Shown piece by piece: positions 2-7,815 of a stretch of 32,555 nt of DNA. The notes below the pieces were generated by a model. That model saw nothing but the letters and a program-made list of their open reading frames with translations. It did not search any database and was not told the origin of the DNA. The first letter of the stretch is position 1, and each line of letters opens with the position of its first letter. Position numbers and translations under genes: made by a program. Location: the NCBI GenBank assembly GCA_902560065.1, contig CACEKG010000014.1, forward strand, positions 1-32,555, given 5' to 3'. Source of the DNA: an uncultured Bacteroidota bacterium. Lineage in GTDB: Bacteria; Bacteroidota; Bacteroidia; Flavobacteriales; Flavobacteriaceae.

Positions 2-225
2 GTTTCATATTTATCAGAACTCAATGCAACATCAACAGCCTCGTCTGTTGCTCAAGAAATATCAACTTTAATTAATAATGATGTGAATGCAACAGTCACA
101 GCTTCTTCAACTGTTGCTGGGCAAATAATTATAACTGCTAAAGTTGCAGGAGTTCCATTTATAACCTCTTCTATTGCTGAAAATCTATCTGGTGGAGGAG
201 CGCCAACAGCTGCCAAAACTGCACC
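2..225 (+). repeat. Inserted domain copy A (partial, in PKD-like module 1)
   Basis: The frame from base 2 reads LNATSTASSVAQEISTLINN, followed by VTASSTVAG and GVPFITSS. This matches copy C in the same protein both in protein and in recognisable DNA. The beginning of the copy lies outside the window. After it the host PKD-like module resumes with NNVVIGGTP. Confidence 0.8.
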
Positions 226-3200
226 ATCCCCTCAACCTAACATAAATAATGTAGTAATCGGTGGAACTCCTGATAATACAGCAATTATAGACAAACCTTA
301 TGCATATACTATAGAAACTCCAGGAACAACCTGTTCTCCAACAATTCAAGGTGGCGTAATAACCGTTTCTAGTGGACCAATAATTGAATTAACTTCATTG
401 GCATCAACCATTAATCAAGAAGTTTGTAATACCTTGAATATAGTTGATATAACATATAAAGTAATTGGTGCTGGTGGAGCTCAAATTCCAGCAAAAAATG
501 CGTTAACATTTACAGGGTTACCAAATAGTTTATCACAACAGTTTAATTCAACAACTCAACAGGAAAGTGTTACAATTTCAGGAATTACTGGGGCCGTTGA
601 TGAGGTAAAGGTTTATGTAAATGGAGTTGAGTTTTCGTCAGGAGATGTAGCTGATAATAATGCTGCGGCATTAGCATTAACAAATTCAATTACAGCATCA
701 ATTAATCCTCTGGTAAATGGAAAGGTAACAGCAACTAATGTTGGAGGAGGAGTAATGACTTTAACAGCAACAACACCTGGAACTGCTTTTACTTTATCAG
801 TAGCTGCAACTGGAGGTACCGCTGCTGTAACAAAAGCCAATCAGGTTGGAACAGGTCTGTTTACTATTAAAGGTCAGTTAACTGAGTCACATTCCTCTGA
901 AATCACTTACAATTATACAATTAATACAACTTTAAATGGCTCATGTAATTCAGCGTCTACTTCTGGAACAATAAAAATAATACCTGAAGAAGTAATTGCT
1001 CATGATCCACTATCAGATCCAGTAAATTTTGGAGGACCAGCAAATCAAGATGTTTGTGAGAACGAAAATATTTTAGGAATAAGATTTAATCTTACAGGTG
1101 GTGCAAATTCTGTTAGTGGACCAACTGCAGTTCCTCCGGCTATTAATGGATTGCCTCCTGGATTATCACTTAATCATGTTAGAGAAAATCAAGTTGAAGA
1201 ATATACTATTGCTGGTATTGCAGATACAAATATAATTACTGTTATAGTAAATGGTATTTCTTACACCAAAACAGCTAACGCTGCTGATACTAATGCAACA
1301 ATGGCTCAAGGAATTGTTAATTCAATTGAAAATAATGTTAATTCTACAGTTACGGCTTCATCAACGGCTGCTGGAAAAATATTATTAACGGCAGATAGTG
1401 AAGGAGTACCATTTACTACTTCAGGAATAGCAACTGGAGGAGGTGCTTCAATTACAAAGACAGCTGTTGGTGTAGCTCCTCAAAATAATAATGAAAATTA
1501 TGTGACATTATCTGGTAGTCCCTCAGAAAATGTTTCTTCTACTAAAACATATAATTATACTTTAACTACAACTGGAACTGTTTGTGCAGATGCAGTTTAC
1601 AATGGATCAATAACAATTAACCCAATTTCTGAAATTTCTCTTTTTTCAGCAGCCACAACAGCTAATCAAATAGCTTGTAATGGTGCAGTAATTGATGATA
1701 TTGTTTATAGCATTGGAGGAGGAGGTACCGGAGCAACAGTTTCAGGGTTACCAGGAGGTTTATCATCTGGATACGATCCAATTTTAAGACGATTTACAAT
1801 TCAAGGAACAATTAATTCAGTTGTTTCATCAAAAACTACTTTCACTTATACTGTATCTACTACAAATGGTAATTGTGATCCAGAAACATCAATGTCAGGC
1901 ACAATTATAGTTTCACCTGATATTACTATTAACACTGGAAGTTTTGTAGTTTCTCAAGTTACTTGTGCTGGAAACACTGATGGTGCGATTACAGTTCCTG
2001 ACGCTGCAATTACTGGTGGAGTTTTAAGTATTGCACAAGTTGATAGGATAAATATAACCAGACCTGGAGGATCTCCAGTTGAGGGAGATTTAACAGGGGT
2101 AATAATTGATGGTACAATTATTAATTTAACAGTTTTGGATCAAAATGGAAGTTTTGGTAAAGGCGATCCTGTAGAAAGTGATTCTTCAATAGCTACTCGT
2201 CTTGCAAATAAAATTAATACTACAGCTGGTATTAGTGTAACAGCTTTAGCAAATGGTTTTGGCGCTGGAACTATTAAATTAACGGCAAATTCACCAGGTG
2301 TCCCCTTTACAGCTTCAGCAACTAGTACTTTAACAGGATCATCAAGCCATACAATTGCCAGAGTGGCTAACGTTGCTAATAGTACTTTAACTTATACTTA
2401 TAATTGGAGTAAGGACGGAGCTTCTGGATATTCATATTCAAAAAGTATAACTGGTTTAGGTGCCGGAGTTTACACCCTAACAGTAGGAACATCATTAAGT
2501 GGCAGTTGTTCAACTACTAGTGATCCAATTACAATAACAGAGCCTACAGCTTTAAGTGTTTCCGTTGCTGGTAATTGTGCAGGAGCTTTCACTGCTACAA
2601 CTGTTGGTGGAACTGCTCCATATGTTTATACATTAGTTAATGAAGATGGATCTGATGACGGAGGAGGAGCAGCTACAAATGCACTGACTAAGGCTTATAC
2701 CGGAAAAACAATTGGTGCTACTTATGTTGTTAAAGTTACTGATATTAATGGTTGTATTGCTTTAAGCCCACCTCACTCAAATTTTGAAGGATTAACTATA
2801 GATGTTACAAAATATGATGTTCAAAATCAAAGATGTTTTGGAAGAGATGAAGGTGCTATAACTAAATCAGCAACAGCTACATCAACAGTTACTGGAGGAT
2901 CAGGGTTTTATAGTTATTCCTGGACAGGACCTAGTGGAACATTTAATACAGAGAATGTTACTGGCTTAGCTGCAGGAAGTTATCAGTTAACAGTCACTGA
3001 CTTGAATTATCCGTCATGTACTGAGAATGCTACTGTAGTTATTCAAGCAGCTACTGCAATTACAATAACTCCTGACGCTGGTAATTCAACTCAAATGTAT
3101 TGTCCAGTTGCTAGTGAAACAGTAGTTGGAGCTGATTGGGGAACATTAGCTGTTAGTGTTTCTGGCGGAACAGTATCTCCAACTTATCAGTATCAGTGGG

Positions 3201-6200
3201 TAAAAATGCCAAGTGGTGTTAATATTTCTAATTCTTTTGGTGGAAATACAAATTCAATTAGAATTAATTCAGGTGGAGATTATATGGTGATTGTTTCAGA
3301 CGCTAATGCTCTTGTTTCCACCGGAAATGTTTCTGCATCTACAGCATCATGTTCAGTTTCACAGTTATTTAGCGTTTCAGGACCATCAGAGTCATTGAGT
3401 GCAGAAATTGTTCTTGGAAGTAATGATAAAGTTACTGGAGGTAATGTAGAAATTTTATTTGATACTTCAAGTACCACAATTAGCTGTAATGGAGATTCTA
3501 ATGGTAGTTTTACTTTTGTAATTAAAGGTGGATCACCTCCATATGAATACAAAAATGGAGGAGGAGGATGGACTTCAGCTTCTGGCGCTACAGTTCAATT
3601 AACAGGATTAAGTGCAGATACTTATAACATAAGAGTAAGAGATGCTGGAAAGTGTGTTTCAGGTGGAGAAGAAGGTGTTTCTCTATCACTTACTCAATCA
3701 GGTACTACCACTAATAATGTAGGGGTTATAATTTCTGAACCTTCTGATGAATTATCAGCCTCATTAAGTGGTGCTGCTAATCAGCAAGATATAGATTGCG
3801 CAACGGGTATAGATGGAAAAATTGAAATTTCAGTTACAGGAGGTCAACCACCTTATCAATTAATATGGACAGGGCCTGCTGGATCTAATTTTAAATCATT
3901 AACAAGTATTGATAATAGCGGAGATTCTTCCAGTATAAGTTTTCTGAAAAATGCAGGAGATTATAGTGTAACAATAACTGATGCAGCGAAATGTATTTTG
4001 ACAGAAGAATACACATTGAAAGAAGCATCTGGAACGGAAGATAAACTTGGCAAGCCGACAATAACAGTAACTCCAGGGGCTTGTGGTACTGATGAAAAAC
4101 CTACCATGGAGGTAGTTTTAAATGGAGGAACTCCAACTAGTATTGAATGGAGAAAGAAAGATAAAGCAATCGTGCAAAATAATATGATTATTGAGTCTAC
4201 AATTTTAGTTCCTCAAAATGGTGATGAATTTACTATAACAATAAATGGAACTGATTTTAAAGAGACATTAACAGTTACTCCAACTAAAAGTTCAATTTCT
4301 AGTCTTACATCAGCTTTAGCAGTAAAAGTTAATTCAGCAGATGGAATTACTGCTACTGTTGTTAATGAAAAAATACAAATTAAAGGAGATGTCATTGGTT
4401 TAGCATTTGAATATTCTGATAGTGTATCCAGAGTTACAGGTTCTTTTTCAGATGTTAAAGATGAACTTAAACAATCTGCTCAAGAAATAGTTGATGGTTG
4501 GATAACTCAAGGTGGTGGAGAATTTGCTTCAGGAGATGGAAAAGGGGATGGTAATCTAATAGTTAATAATGTGCCTGCCGGTTTATATCTTGTTTATTTG
4601 AATGATGATAGTGGGTGTAGTCCTCAGACAAGTGATCCAGTCTATGTAAGTGGAACAAACAGTTCTCTTGGAATTACTGTAGATTCTTCTACAGGTGGTT
4701 TAGAGTATTTTAATACATGTAGTTATTCTGCAACCCCAATCACTGCAAACTTTAAGTTTACTTTATTGGGAGCTACATCTTTAGTGTCAATTACTTTAAA
4801 TGGTACTGTTATAACTCAAGCAAGCGGCAAATTAGCCGTTGCTTCCGGTGGAAGATACACTATTTTAGATTTAGCACCTGGAGATTATGAGATTGCAGCT
4901 ACTGATCCTAATAACCCAGGTTGTCCAGCTTCTCAATCGTTTACAGTTAATGAATCTACAGAAATAAAATATATAGGAGAAACTGAGCTTTCAATTGAAA
5001 AGTGTCAAGATAAGATAGCATTAAATTTTGAGCCTTTGACAGATTTTATTGAAGCTGATAATCTTGATGCTTTTTATACTGGAAATAGTGATCCTTACTA
5101 TGCTCTAGAATTGTCAACTCCAGCAGGACTTGTAATTAAAAGATCTAGTTTTAGAACCGCTGAGGAAATAGCGACTAATATAAATACATTTGAACTTGAA
5201 GAAGGATTATATACGCTAAAAATAACAAATAATAAAGGATGTACAAATGATCCTTCAAAACCAATACTTATAAATGTAACTCAAGAAATTTCTAATATTG
5301 TAGTTTCAGAGGGATTAGTTGATGCAAGTGGTAACCCAACTTTCTCTAATCCAGTAAGCTGTCTATTAAATGCAAAAGATGGAAAAATTGGTATTAATAT
5401 TGCAGGTGGCCCTGCTAATGCTGAAATAAATTGGGAATATTTAGATTCAAATGATCCAAGTTCAACTGGTTGGACTTCTTTACCTGAATATAAAGGTTAT
5501 TTATCTATGAATGATTTAGAAAAAGGTAAATATAGATATAAAATCACTGACCCTGATCCACTTATAACAGGTAATTGCGCCTCAAAACCTTATGCATTTA
5601 AACAAGGGGTTATAGAAGTAGAAGATGATAAGTCTTTAGTTATTTCTGATGGACCATATGTGGATAATAATTTATGTAATAATAAACCAGGTATTTTAAG
5701 AATTGATGTTATTGATGCTCAGCAAGCTCCTGTAACTTTTTATTATGGTACAGATTTCACATCATCTAAGATTGTAACTCATGTAAAAGACGATATTGAT
5801 TCTTATATAGTTACTATAGATGAACCTAAGAATTTAGGTTATTTATATGTTGTTAATGATAGGGGTTGTACTAAATCAGCTAAGTTAGAGTTTGATTTAG
5901 GCACTCCTGGGTTTGAGTATTCTACTCCAACTTATAATAATTCTATAAGTGAAGATGATAGAGTAATTAATGCAAGACAAGAAATAACTTTTAATAATCA
6001 ATCAACATCTCCATACACTAAGGTTAGATGGGATTGGGGTGATAACGTTTTTGAAGAGATAGTTATAGCAGACTCTTCTATACAAACAGACCCTGCATTA
6101 CAAGGAGATAGTGATGGTGATGGCTGGCTTGATTGGGTTGAATTTTTAGCTGGAACTTCTATTGACCCGACAACTGGTGGTGTAAGCAATACAACTCCAA

Positions 6201-6799
6201 AAGATGATGATGGTGATGGTGTTTGGGATAATCAGACAGGTGTAACAAAAGGAGATGCAAAACATTCTTATGGCTTACAGGGGACATATTTAGTCACTCT
6301 CCAAATAGAAAATGAATTAGGATGTTTTGATCAGGTAACTAAGCCTGTAAAAGTAGGAAAAGGTTACTTTGTATTACCTCCAAATGTATTCACTCCAAAT
6401 GGTGATAAGAAAAATGATTATTTTGGAGTTCTGTTTTCTGGATTTTGTTATGTAGAATTTACAATATATGATAATACAGGTAATGTTGTTTATCCTATGA
6501 AATCAAGTGGAGAAAATCCAAAAACATCATCTTCTACAAGTACAAGCACAACAAATACTCTTGGATATGCTCCGAATTTCAAAAGAGATGAAGGAGGTAA
6601 TTTCCTTGGTGGACCAAATGAATTTGGACCCGATGGTTATCCTGATTTTAAACCTTGGGATGGAAAACCAGATGGAAGTGATGAATTAGGAACTGCTCCT
6701 TATTACATATGGACATTAAAAGCTTGGAATAAAGAGAGTTGTACAGGTGAAGAATTTGATGCCGTTGTAAGAGAAGGTGCATTTATAATACTTAGATAA
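2..6799 (+). CDS. Giant modular type IX-secreted surface protein (3' part; start is outside the window)
   Basis: This is the C-terminal 2265 or so residues of a cell-surface protein. The frame is open to the left edge, and the residues before the first possible start (GTG at 83) continue a recognisable repeat, so the true start lies upstream. Order: four PKD-like modules (2-375, 376-990, 991-1632, 1633-1920); about eleven SprB-like or related modules (1921-5870, typical motifs SCNGDSNG, GGSPPYEY, GLSADTY); a PKD domain (5911-6360, core WDWGD) interrupted by an Asp-rich calcium-type loop; and a gliding-motility-associated C-terminal sorting domain (6365-6799, core NVFTPNGDKKND). Modules 2-15 each carry exactly two cysteines. 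Five modules contain an inserted domain annotated separately. The C-terminal domain implies export by the type IX system and surface attachment. Adhesion or gliding is the likely role, but the ligand cannot be read from sequence. PorP/SprF follows after 2 bases. Confidence 0.9.
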   Translation, partial: VSYLSELNATSTASSVAQEISTLINNDVNATVTASSTVAGQIIITAKVAGVPFITSSIAENLSGGGAPTAAKTAPSPQPNINNVVIGGTPDNTAIIDKPYAYTIETPGTTCSPTIQGGVITVSSGPIIELTSLASTINQEVCNTLNIVDITYKVIGAGGAQIPAKNALTFTGLPNSLSQQFNSTTQQESVTISGITGAVDEVKVYVNGVEFSSGDVADNNAAALALTNSITASINPLVNGKVTATNVGGGVMTLTATTPGTAFTLSVAATGGTAAVTKANQVGTGLFTIKGQLTESHSSEITYNYTINTTLNGSCNSASTSGTIKIIPEEVIAHDPLSDPVNFGGPANQDVCENENILGIRFNLTGGANSVSGPTAVPPAINGLPPGLSLNHVRENQVEEYTIAGIADTNIITVIVNGISYTKTANAADTNATMAQGIVNSIENNVNSTVTASSTAAGKILLTADSEGVPFTTSGIATGGGASITKTAVGVAPQNNNENYVTLSGSPSENVSSTKTYNYTLTTTGTVCADAVYNGSITINPISEISLFSAATTANQIACNGAVIDDIVYSIGGGGTGATVSGLPGGLSSGYDPILRRFTIQGTINSVVSSKTTFTYTVSTTNGNCDPETSMSGTIIVSPDITINTGSFVVSQVTCAGNTDGAITVPDAAITGGVLSIAQVDRINITRPGGSPVEGDLTGVIIDGTIINLTVLDQNGSFGKGDPVESDSSIATRLANKINTTAGISVTALANGFGAGTIKLTANSPGVPFTASATSTLTGSSSHTIARVANVANSTLTYTYNWSKDGASGYSYSKSITGLGAGVYTLTVGTSLSGSCSTTSDPITITEPTALSVSVAGNCAGAFTATTVGGTAPYVYTLVNEDGSDDGGGAATNALTKAYTGKTIGATYVVKVTDINGCIALSPPHSNFEGLTIDVTKYDVQNQRCFGRDEGAITKSATATSTVTGGSGFYSYSWTGPSGTFNTENVTGLAAGSYQLTVTDLNYPSCTENATVVIQAATAITITPDAGNSTQMYCPVASETVVGADWGTLAVSVSGGTVSPTYQYQWVKMPSGVNISNSFGGNTNSIRINSGGDYMVIVSDANALVSTGNVSASTASCSVSQLFSVSGPSESLSAEIVLGSNDKVTGGNVEILFDTSSTTISCNGDSNGSFTFVIKGGSPPYEYKNGGGGWTSASGATVQLTGLSADTYNIRVRDAGKCVSGGEEGVSLSLTQSGTTTNNVGVIISEPSDELSASLSGAANQQDIDCATGIDGKIEISVTGGQPPYQLIWTGPAGSNFKSLTSIDNSGDSSSISFLKNAGDYSVTITDAAKCILTEEYTLKEASGTEDKLGKPTITVTPGACGTDEKPTMEVVLNGGTPTSIEWRKKDKAIVQNNMIIESTILVPQNGDEFTITINGTDFKETLTVTPTKSSISSLTSALAVKVNSADGITATVVNEKIQIKGDVIGLAFEYSDSVSRVTGSFSDVKDELKQSAQEIVDGWITQGGGEFASGDGKGDGNLIVNNVPAGLYLVYLNDDSGCSPQTSDPVYVSGTNSSLGITVDSSTGGLEYFNTCSYSATPITANFKFTLLGATSLVSITLNGTVITQASGKLAVASGGRYTILDLAPGDYEIAATDPNNPGCPASQSFTVNESTEIKYIGETELSIEKCQDKIALNFEPLTDFIEADNLDAFYTGNSDPYYALELSTPAGLVIKRSSFRTAEEIATNINTFELEEGLYTLKITNNKGCTNDPSKPILINVTQEISNIVVSEGLVDASGNPTFSNPVSCLLNAKDGKIGINIAGGPANAEINWEYLDSNDPSSTGWTSLPEYKGYLSMNDLEKGKYRYKITDPDPLITGNCASKPYAFKQGVIEVEDDKSLVISDGPYVDNNLCNNKPGILRIDVIDAQQAPVTFYYGTDFTSSKIVTHVKDDIDSYIVTIDEPKNLGYLYVVNDRGCTKSAKLEFDLGTPGFEYSTPTYNNSISEDDRVINARQEITFNNQSTSPYTKVRWDWGDNVFEEIVIADSSIQTDPALQGDSDGDGWLDWVEFLAGTSIDPTTGGVSNTTPKDDDGDGVWDNQTGVTKGDAKHSYGLQGTYLVTLQIENELGCFDQVTKPVKVGKGYFVLPPNVFTPNGDKKNDYFGVLFSGFCYVEFTIYDNTGNVVYPMKSSGENPKTSSSTSTSTTNTLGYAPNFKRDEGGNFLGGPNEFGPDGYPDFKPWDGKPDGSDELGTAPYYIWTLKAWNKESCTGEEFDAVVREGAFIILR
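590..856 (+). repeat. Inserted domain copy B (in PKD-like module 2)
   Basis: The segment runs from GAVDEVKVYVNGVEF through AAALALTNSITASIN, VTATNVGGGVMTLTA and GTAFTLSV to VTKANQVG. It separates VTISG from FTIKG, two strands that are nearly contiguous in the uninterrupted module at 1633-1920. It contains no cysteine. Confidence 0.8.
1216..1490 (+). repeat. Inserted domain copy C (in PKD-like module 3)
   Basis: The segment has the same order of signatures: ITVIVNGISYTKTA, MAQGIVNSIENN, VTASSTAAGKILLTA, GVPFTTSG. It sits after YTIAG and before YVTLSG, the same point in the host module as copy B. It is closest in sequence to copy A and contains no cysteine. Confidence 0.8.
2027..2380 (+). repeat. 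Inserted domain copy D (inside an SprB-like module)
   Basis: A longer copy: VDRINITRPGGSP, GVIIDGTIINLTV, SIATRLANKINTTAGISVTA, GTIKLTANSPGVPFTASA, ending near ARVANVANS. It interrupts an SprB-like repeat whose first half (VTCAGNTDGAITV) is upstream and second half (TYTYNWSKDGA, GLGAGVYTLTV) is downstream. The host module therefore differs from that of copies A-C. Confidence 0.8.
4213..4446 (+). repeat. Inserted domain copy E (most diverged, inside an SprB-like module)
   Basis: The signatures are recognisable but worn: DEFTITINGTDFKETLTV, SSLTSALAVKVNSADGITAT, EKIQIKGD, GLAFEYSD. It interrupts a module that starts at ACGTDEKPTMEVVLNGGTP and resumes later with NVPAGLYLVYL and DDSGC. Membership rests on motif order more than on identity. 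Confidence 0.6.
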
Positions 6800-6801
6800 A
6801 A

Positions 6802-7815
6802 ATGAAAAGAATTATTTTGTTTTACTTTTTATTTTTGCTGATATTTTTTCAGCTAGGGTCTTTGTATTCTCAAGAAGAATACTTAGTCAATAATTCTCGG
6901 TTTCTTCAAAAATCAAATCCTAGTTACTTTGGATATAATAGCTTATTAAAGGTAGGAGTTTTATATAACTCACTTACTTTAAATGCTTTTGAAAGAATGA
7001 ATAACAAATATATATTTGGAACAATTAGTTTTGATAATCAAAATTTTTCATTAGGAGTTGATGTTAATTCATTTAAAATGGAAAAGAGTGGATATGGTCA
7101 AACTATAGCAAATTTGACCTACGTATATAAATTACAATTAGACAATTATTTGTTTTTTCTTCCTGCTATTACAGGAGGTTTAGCAAGTAAGCAATTTAAT
7201 CCAGATAATTTAACATTTGGTGATCAATTAAGTATCGGAACAGGTCAACTCCTAGAATCAAATGATCCTCTTGCATCAATAATTACAAATGCTAATTATT
7301 TTGATTTAGGAGCCTCTTTTTTATTACATAGTGAAGATTTTATGGCAGGACTAACTATTAAGCATATTAATAAACCAAATGATTCTTTTAATAAAGAAGA
7401 TGACACAACAGAGAAACCCATTCAAATAGGAATTCAAGGAGCGTATGAATTTGATATTAACCCCTATGAAAGGAGGTATCTTCCCAGGTATTCTTATTTA
7501 ATGGTTTATTTGAATGCTATAAAAGTTCAAAATTCGATTCATATGTATCTTTCTCAAGAGTTGCAACTTGGTGAATTCTCAGTAGGATTAAGTCAACAAG
7601 CTGGAAGTAGTGGACTTAATAATTTAGGAGTTTCTTTTGGTTTGTCTGCAGAAAATTTTGATTTTGGAGCTTCATATAATTTTAATTTTTTCAATAAACC
7701 AGGAACGGTATTTGCTCCATCAATATTTGAACTTTATGTAACTTTTGACTTTAGTATTTATAGGAGAAATCAAAGGGGATTATTTAAAAGAATTCAAATA
7801 GATAATTATTATTAG
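6802..7815 (+). CDS. PorP/SprF family type IX secretion-associated outer-membrane protein
   Basis: A 337-residue protein with a clear signal peptide (KR, then a long hydrophobic stretch, cleavage probably after LGSLYSQ near residue 24). The mature N-terminus carries the family's NPSYFGYNS motif. The rest alternates hydrophobic and polar residues with many aromatics, as expected for an outer-membrane beta barrel, and length and ending (TFDFSIYRRN) fit the family. Such proteins are commonly encoded beside secreted proteins with a gliding-motility-type C-terminal domain and are thought to help export or anchor that partner. That matches here: the start is only 2 bases after the giant surface-protein gene, so the two are almost surely cotranscribed and probably translationally coupled. 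The specific pairing is inferred from position. Confidence 0.88.
   Translation: MKRIILFYFLFLLIFFQLGSLYSQEEYLVNNSRFLQKSNPSYFGYNSLLKVGVLYNSLTLNAFERMNNKYIFGTISFDNQNFSLGVDVNSFKMEKSGYGQTIANLTYVYKLQLDNYLFFLPAITGGLASKQFNPDNLTFGDQLSIGTGQLLESNDPLASIITNANYFDLGASFLLHSEDFMAGLTIKHINKPNDSFNKEDDTTEKPIQIGIQGAYEFDINPYERRYLPRYSYLMVYLNAIKVQNSIHMYLSQELQLGEFSVGLSQQAGSSGLNNLGVSFGLSAENFDFGASYNFNFFNKPGTVFAPSIFELYVTFDFSIYRRNQRGLFKRIQIDNYY

Follow-up and report, generated by a model that had tools for sequence, protein, structure and literature searches.

The window analysed here is a stretch of 32,555 nucleotides from an uncultured member of the Flavobacteriaceae. It opens inside an open reading frame, which is followed directly by a gene for an outer-membrane protein. 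The rest (7828-32555) carries housekeeping genes: acyl-CoA dehydrogenase, MarR regulator, AMP-binding enzyme, FGAR amidotransferase, ABC transporter, phosphomannomutase, glycosyltransferase and carbamoyl-phosphate synthase. The features of the first 7815 nucleotides were as follows.

2 to 6799, forward strand: ORF open at the contig start; its 2265 aa are the predicted C-terminal part of a giant, SprB-like protein secreted by the type IX system
2 to 220, forward strand: insert w1, aa 1-73, truncated at its 5' end by the contig start; 33.1 bits when held out against the other four copies
359 to 991, forward strand: PKD-like host module split by w2; host profile positions 5-68 before the insert and 36-101 after it
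560 to 850, forward strand: insert w2, aa 187-283; 21.0 bits held out
983 to 1630, forward strand: PKD-like host module split by w3; host profile halves 15-93 and 45-101; AF2 pLDDT 82
1196 to 1468, forward strand: insert w3, aa 399-489; 50.6 bits held out; match to phrog_165 (tail sheath) at 7.5e-5; own fold in the model
1622 to 1924, forward strand: empty PKD-like module, aa 541-641, a natural empty site; 94.6 bits in an unbroken match at profile positions 2-102, the profile being seeded partly with this same module
1925 to 2494, forward strand: SprB-type module hosting w4, which splits it between TGG and YxYxW; SprB profile 1-24 upstream and 19-59 downstream
2039 to 2377, forward strand: insert w4, aa 680-792; 21.8 bits held out; orthologous inserts in relatives
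4076 to 4618, forward strand: SprB-type module hosting w5, which splits it behind the repeat's W; orthologous module filled or empty by genus
4193 to 4468, forward strand: insert w5, aa 1398-1489, more diverged than any other copy; 10.3 bits with four copies, 25.1 bits with ten other copies
6365 to 6796, forward strand: candidate CHU_C / T9SS type B C-terminal signal; PF13585 24.8 bits (cut-off 27), TIGR04131 16.8 bits (cut-off 35)
6802 to 7815, forward strand: PorP/SprF-family outer-membrane protein; PF11751 8.3e-18, TIGR03519 2.6e-24

SprB repeats (PF13573) were detected in six stretches of the ORF (2.3e-16). The E-value of PF13585 (CHU_C) was 2.5e-5, just under the curated cut-off, and the low scores of this domain may be due to a lineage-specific insertion of ~45 aa that interrupts it (6500-6664). 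Upstream of CHU_C, a PKD-like domain contains a DxDxDG-rich, thrombospondin-type-3-like stretch (6086-6268), a further type of insertion within this giant protein, which was present in this genus and missing from the other aligned orthologues. The SprB repeats and the adjoining PorP/SprF gene are common to this locus and to SprB and SprF of Flavobacterium johnsoniae, and the candidate type B C-terminal signal would be a further likeness; in that species SprB, a protein with a type B CTD, was found with SprF bound to it (PMC9143113). The genome also encodes the T9SS component GldM (1.2e-110). We regard the ORF, with a moderate confidence that applies jointly to the whole explanation put forward below, as part of a surface adhesin of SprB-like type, secreted by the type IX system, with a stalk that would be a chain of small beta-sandwich modules. 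In the same-genus genome G001 the orthologue has 6781 aa and 16 inserts. The gene of the window is probably split over three contigs (C19, C34 and C14), since their inserts match up with those of G001 in the same order. Contig C34, from the same genome, has an ORF that runs off both its ends and carries related modules and six further insert copies, and it is probably the upstream part of this gene. One copy of the domain also occurs in a different giant protein of this genus (L060/L061 in G001:C5, 9046-aa ORF; L059 in G000:C24, 1375-aa ORF).

The original prediction, made from the sequence, was that five segments of this protein share one domain. The ORF holds five copies (w1-w5) of a single domain of ~90 aa, their limits slightly shifted from those first proposed. 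The homology was evaluated by building a profile from the remaining four copies and scoring the left-out copy, with 1000 shuffles each; the best shuffle scores were 10.5, 11.0, 9.8, 10.9 and 14.9 bits for w1 to w5, respectively. The first four copies thus recognised each other, at 21-51 bits against no more than 11 bits in their shuffles, and chance resemblance among the segments was rejected. The 10.3 bits of w5 were within the reach of shuffles, and this copy was recovered only when the six copies from C34 were added: with the resulting ten-copy profile w5 rose to 25.1 bits, while the non-insert stretches of the protein gave 3.5 bits at most. Depending on the cut-off, 64-69 copies were counted in Flavobacteriaceae proteins, with a median identity of 21% among them and with conserved positions of structural kind (G, A, G, F, G). 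No family in Pfam covers the domain.

It had also been proposed that each segment splits a host module. Both halves of the host were visible around four of the inserts; for w1 only the downstream half was present (PKD-like profile 58-100), the upstream half lying beyond the contig start. The hosts were not five different modules, as first thought: w1, w2 and w3 occupy the same place in three copies of one PKD-like type, and w4 and w5 occupy two different places in SprB-type modules. About 26 PKD-like hosts in six genomes were split at profile position 55-58 or close to it. One insertion place is used in PKD-like modules and two in SprB-type modules. The empty PKD-like module of the window was also free of insert in G001. 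Two pairs of inserts arranged back to back were seen in a 5175-aa ORF (L052, G077:C11; aa 3480-3655 and 2837-3041), one pair within one SprB site and the other within one PKD-like module.

The w3 host with its insert was modelled with AF2 from an alignment of 16 rows, empty hosts included. The model had a pLDDT of 82, about 92 in the core of the insert, and a pTM of 0.64, which leaves the relative placement of insert and host loose. The insert appeared as a separate strand-strand-strand-helix-strand-strand-strand unit (residues 71-160) in a loop of the host, whose strands resume at residue 172; the empty-host rows bias this model towards nesting. A fold in which the segments are integral strands of the host, which had been named as the result that would speak against the proposal, was not obtained for w3. 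The model of the w4 SprB module, from a 4-row alignment, reached a pLDDT of 37 and was set aside, so the nesting in SprB modules rests on sequence. Altogether the host matches in two halves, the empty sites and the w3 model support the nesting of one domain family inside host modules of a predicted type IX-secreted surface protein, as originally suggested.

A likeness to phage tail proteins had been suggested in the first reading of the sequence, and it was borne out by profile searches, profile-profile comparison and fold search. Among 34 diverse members, 12 matched phrog_165 (tail sheath) of PHROGs at E≤0.01, the best at 7.8e-9, in the region 105-201 of its profile; host modules without inserts, used as control, gave no match to phrog_165. 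The best PDB sequence matches of the insert profile were also tail sheath proteins (0.0017 and 0.0043), and matches to collagen adhesins in the same search were set aside because they cover only part of the profile. Two members matched Phage_nozzle of Pfam (0.0014). The top Foldseek match was the tail sheath of A-1(L) (8kee), at 3.2 Å over 94 columns with a probability of 1.00, the output being without the position of this match inside the query model; the next matches included phiTE and Mu tail proteins, a baseplate unit and FliD, and a fold search of viral models gave sheath, baseplate and nozzle proteins. The profile-profile comparison placed the likeness in the add-on domain of the sheath (1.1e-5) and not in the sheath core (0.54). 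Neither tblastn of one insert against phages nor a scan of viral contigs with the A-1(L) sheath as query found anything. Considering the empty tblastn search, the link with phages is one of profiles and folds, and judged from these the insert domain is homologous to the sheath add-on domain, yet the giant protein is not a sheath protein.

By comparison with the phage system (PHROG 165; A-1(L) gp9, PDB 8kee; phiTE 9cba), the domain appears to be the same by profile, profile-profile and fold criteria, and there it is likewise an insertion with a natural empty site: it spans residues ~91-184 of A-1(L) gp9, and the related sheath of Lbo402-yong5 (386 residues) is without exactly that part. The host is different, being in the phage a virion sheath core with one copy per subunit and here a series of PKD-like and SprB-type modules with many copies. 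The fold search also retrieved D2-D3 of the flagellar cap FliD and add-on domains from phage nozzle and baseplate proteins, with matches weaker than those of the sheath.

A second point of comparison is given by the RTX adhesins AhLap and FrhA, in which ligand-binding domains are held out from the stalk by Ig-like split domains (PMC12077191). In both systems a beta-sandwich stalk module is interrupted and its fold is then completed. The RTX adhesins use type I secretion and have RTX repeats, with few split domains, near the tip, and known lectin, RTX or vWFA inserts; the protein described here ends in a CHU_C-like domain, as a type IX-type protein, and has up to ~16 copies along its length. 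Taking into account that the layout is the same and that the protein is SprB-like, it is natural to suppose that each insert is a displayed side domain, with a role that may be in adhesion. The explanation that we favour, with moderate confidence, is that a sheath-like domain has been plugged in many modules of an adhesin stalk as an outward side domain. The host module would close around the insert plugged into its loop, the insert should then stand sideways off the stalk, and it would act at the cell surface as a displayed side domain, probably for ligand binding or for spacing. The copies would have been passed down as part of the gene and have grown in number as host and insert were duplicated together, with slow gain and loss at individual sites.

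The serious rival to a binding role is that the insert is a passive spacer or stiffener, which would broaden the stalk, shield it from proteases or fix the distance between modules and bind nothing; we consider it possible, though the less probable of the two. The copies are so diverged that conserved binding residues cannot be named, only structural positions being kept, and this would also suit a mere spacer, as would the many copies per protein. Also in line with a spacer, additional domains on the common sheath core of phages have been suggested to serve in virion stability or in adsorption (PMC9230969). Against the spacer, the occupancy of the w5 site varies between genera, which implies that this host can persist without the domain, and the split-out domains of solved RTX adhesins bind ligands (PMC12077191). 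An extension of the binding role, which we put forward as rather speculative, is that the domain is a shared "side-branch" part of phage tails and flavobacterial adhesins, passed between phages and bacteria, and that its varied copies along the stalk form a multi-specific binding array.

The domain was also described at first as mobile, and the distribution of the copies was consistent with this only on a long time scale. It was found in 10 of the 251 genomes sampled within the family, where the insert is thus rare, and in 11 of 396 genomes of a phylum sample, mostly of another family and there in very large proteins with tandem copies. In another family of the phylum, proteins of 10,000-15,000 aa (L144, L145, L155 and L156) have tandem arrays of the domain, apparently not nested. 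Comparison of orthologues, as had been advised, revealed inserts at the w4 site in about ten genera, Kriegella, Arenibacter and Maribacter among them; at the w5 site G000, G001 and G077 carry the insert, and in three genera (G021, G090 and G123) a short linker rich in Ser/Thr stands in its place. In the insert tree, which was poorly resolved, host type was clustered, with 17 changes compared with 31 in shuffles and a minimum of 5, and hence at least five host-type changes.

The several host folds and sites, the presence or absence at w5 and the changes of host type could be taken as traces of a selfish domain that inserts into host modules at the DNA level. We find this very improbable, because occupancy agrees site by site between the two species of the genus (G000 and G001) and host and insert duplicate together in tandem, as in G001, where a unit of two modules was triplicated together with the inserts it carries. 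Boundary repeats were looked for at the inserts and none was seen, nor any insertion footprint or recent site-to-site move that would mark a mobile element, and there was no difference in base composition (GC 36.1 vs 34.9%). Inserts and hosts paired between G000 and G001 had similar divergence. Recent transposition at the DNA level was rejected, and "mobile" was an overstatement: the domain has moved between hosts and sites over a long time, and its recent growth is ordinary tandem duplication. That the segments are ordinary host strands, alike only by the composition of beta sheets, agrees with their Thr/Val/Ala-rich sequence and is hardly credible in view of the shuffled controls, the host profile in two halves, the separate fold in the model and above all the natural empty sites, by which it is refuted.

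Domain nesting, SprB-like proteins and the add-on domains of sheaths are already known, each by itself. In the open-access literature searched we found no description of their combination, which may be described elsewhere. The proteins that carry the insert are at present annotated only through their SprB repeats, the domain having no Pfam model of its own. The sheath-like side domain proposed here would extend the split-domain logic of the RTX adhesins to SprB-like type IX-secreted proteins and would link a surface protein of the Bacteroidota with the add-on domains of phage tail sheaths. It also provides a concrete candidate for the adhesive part of the giant gliding-type adhesins.
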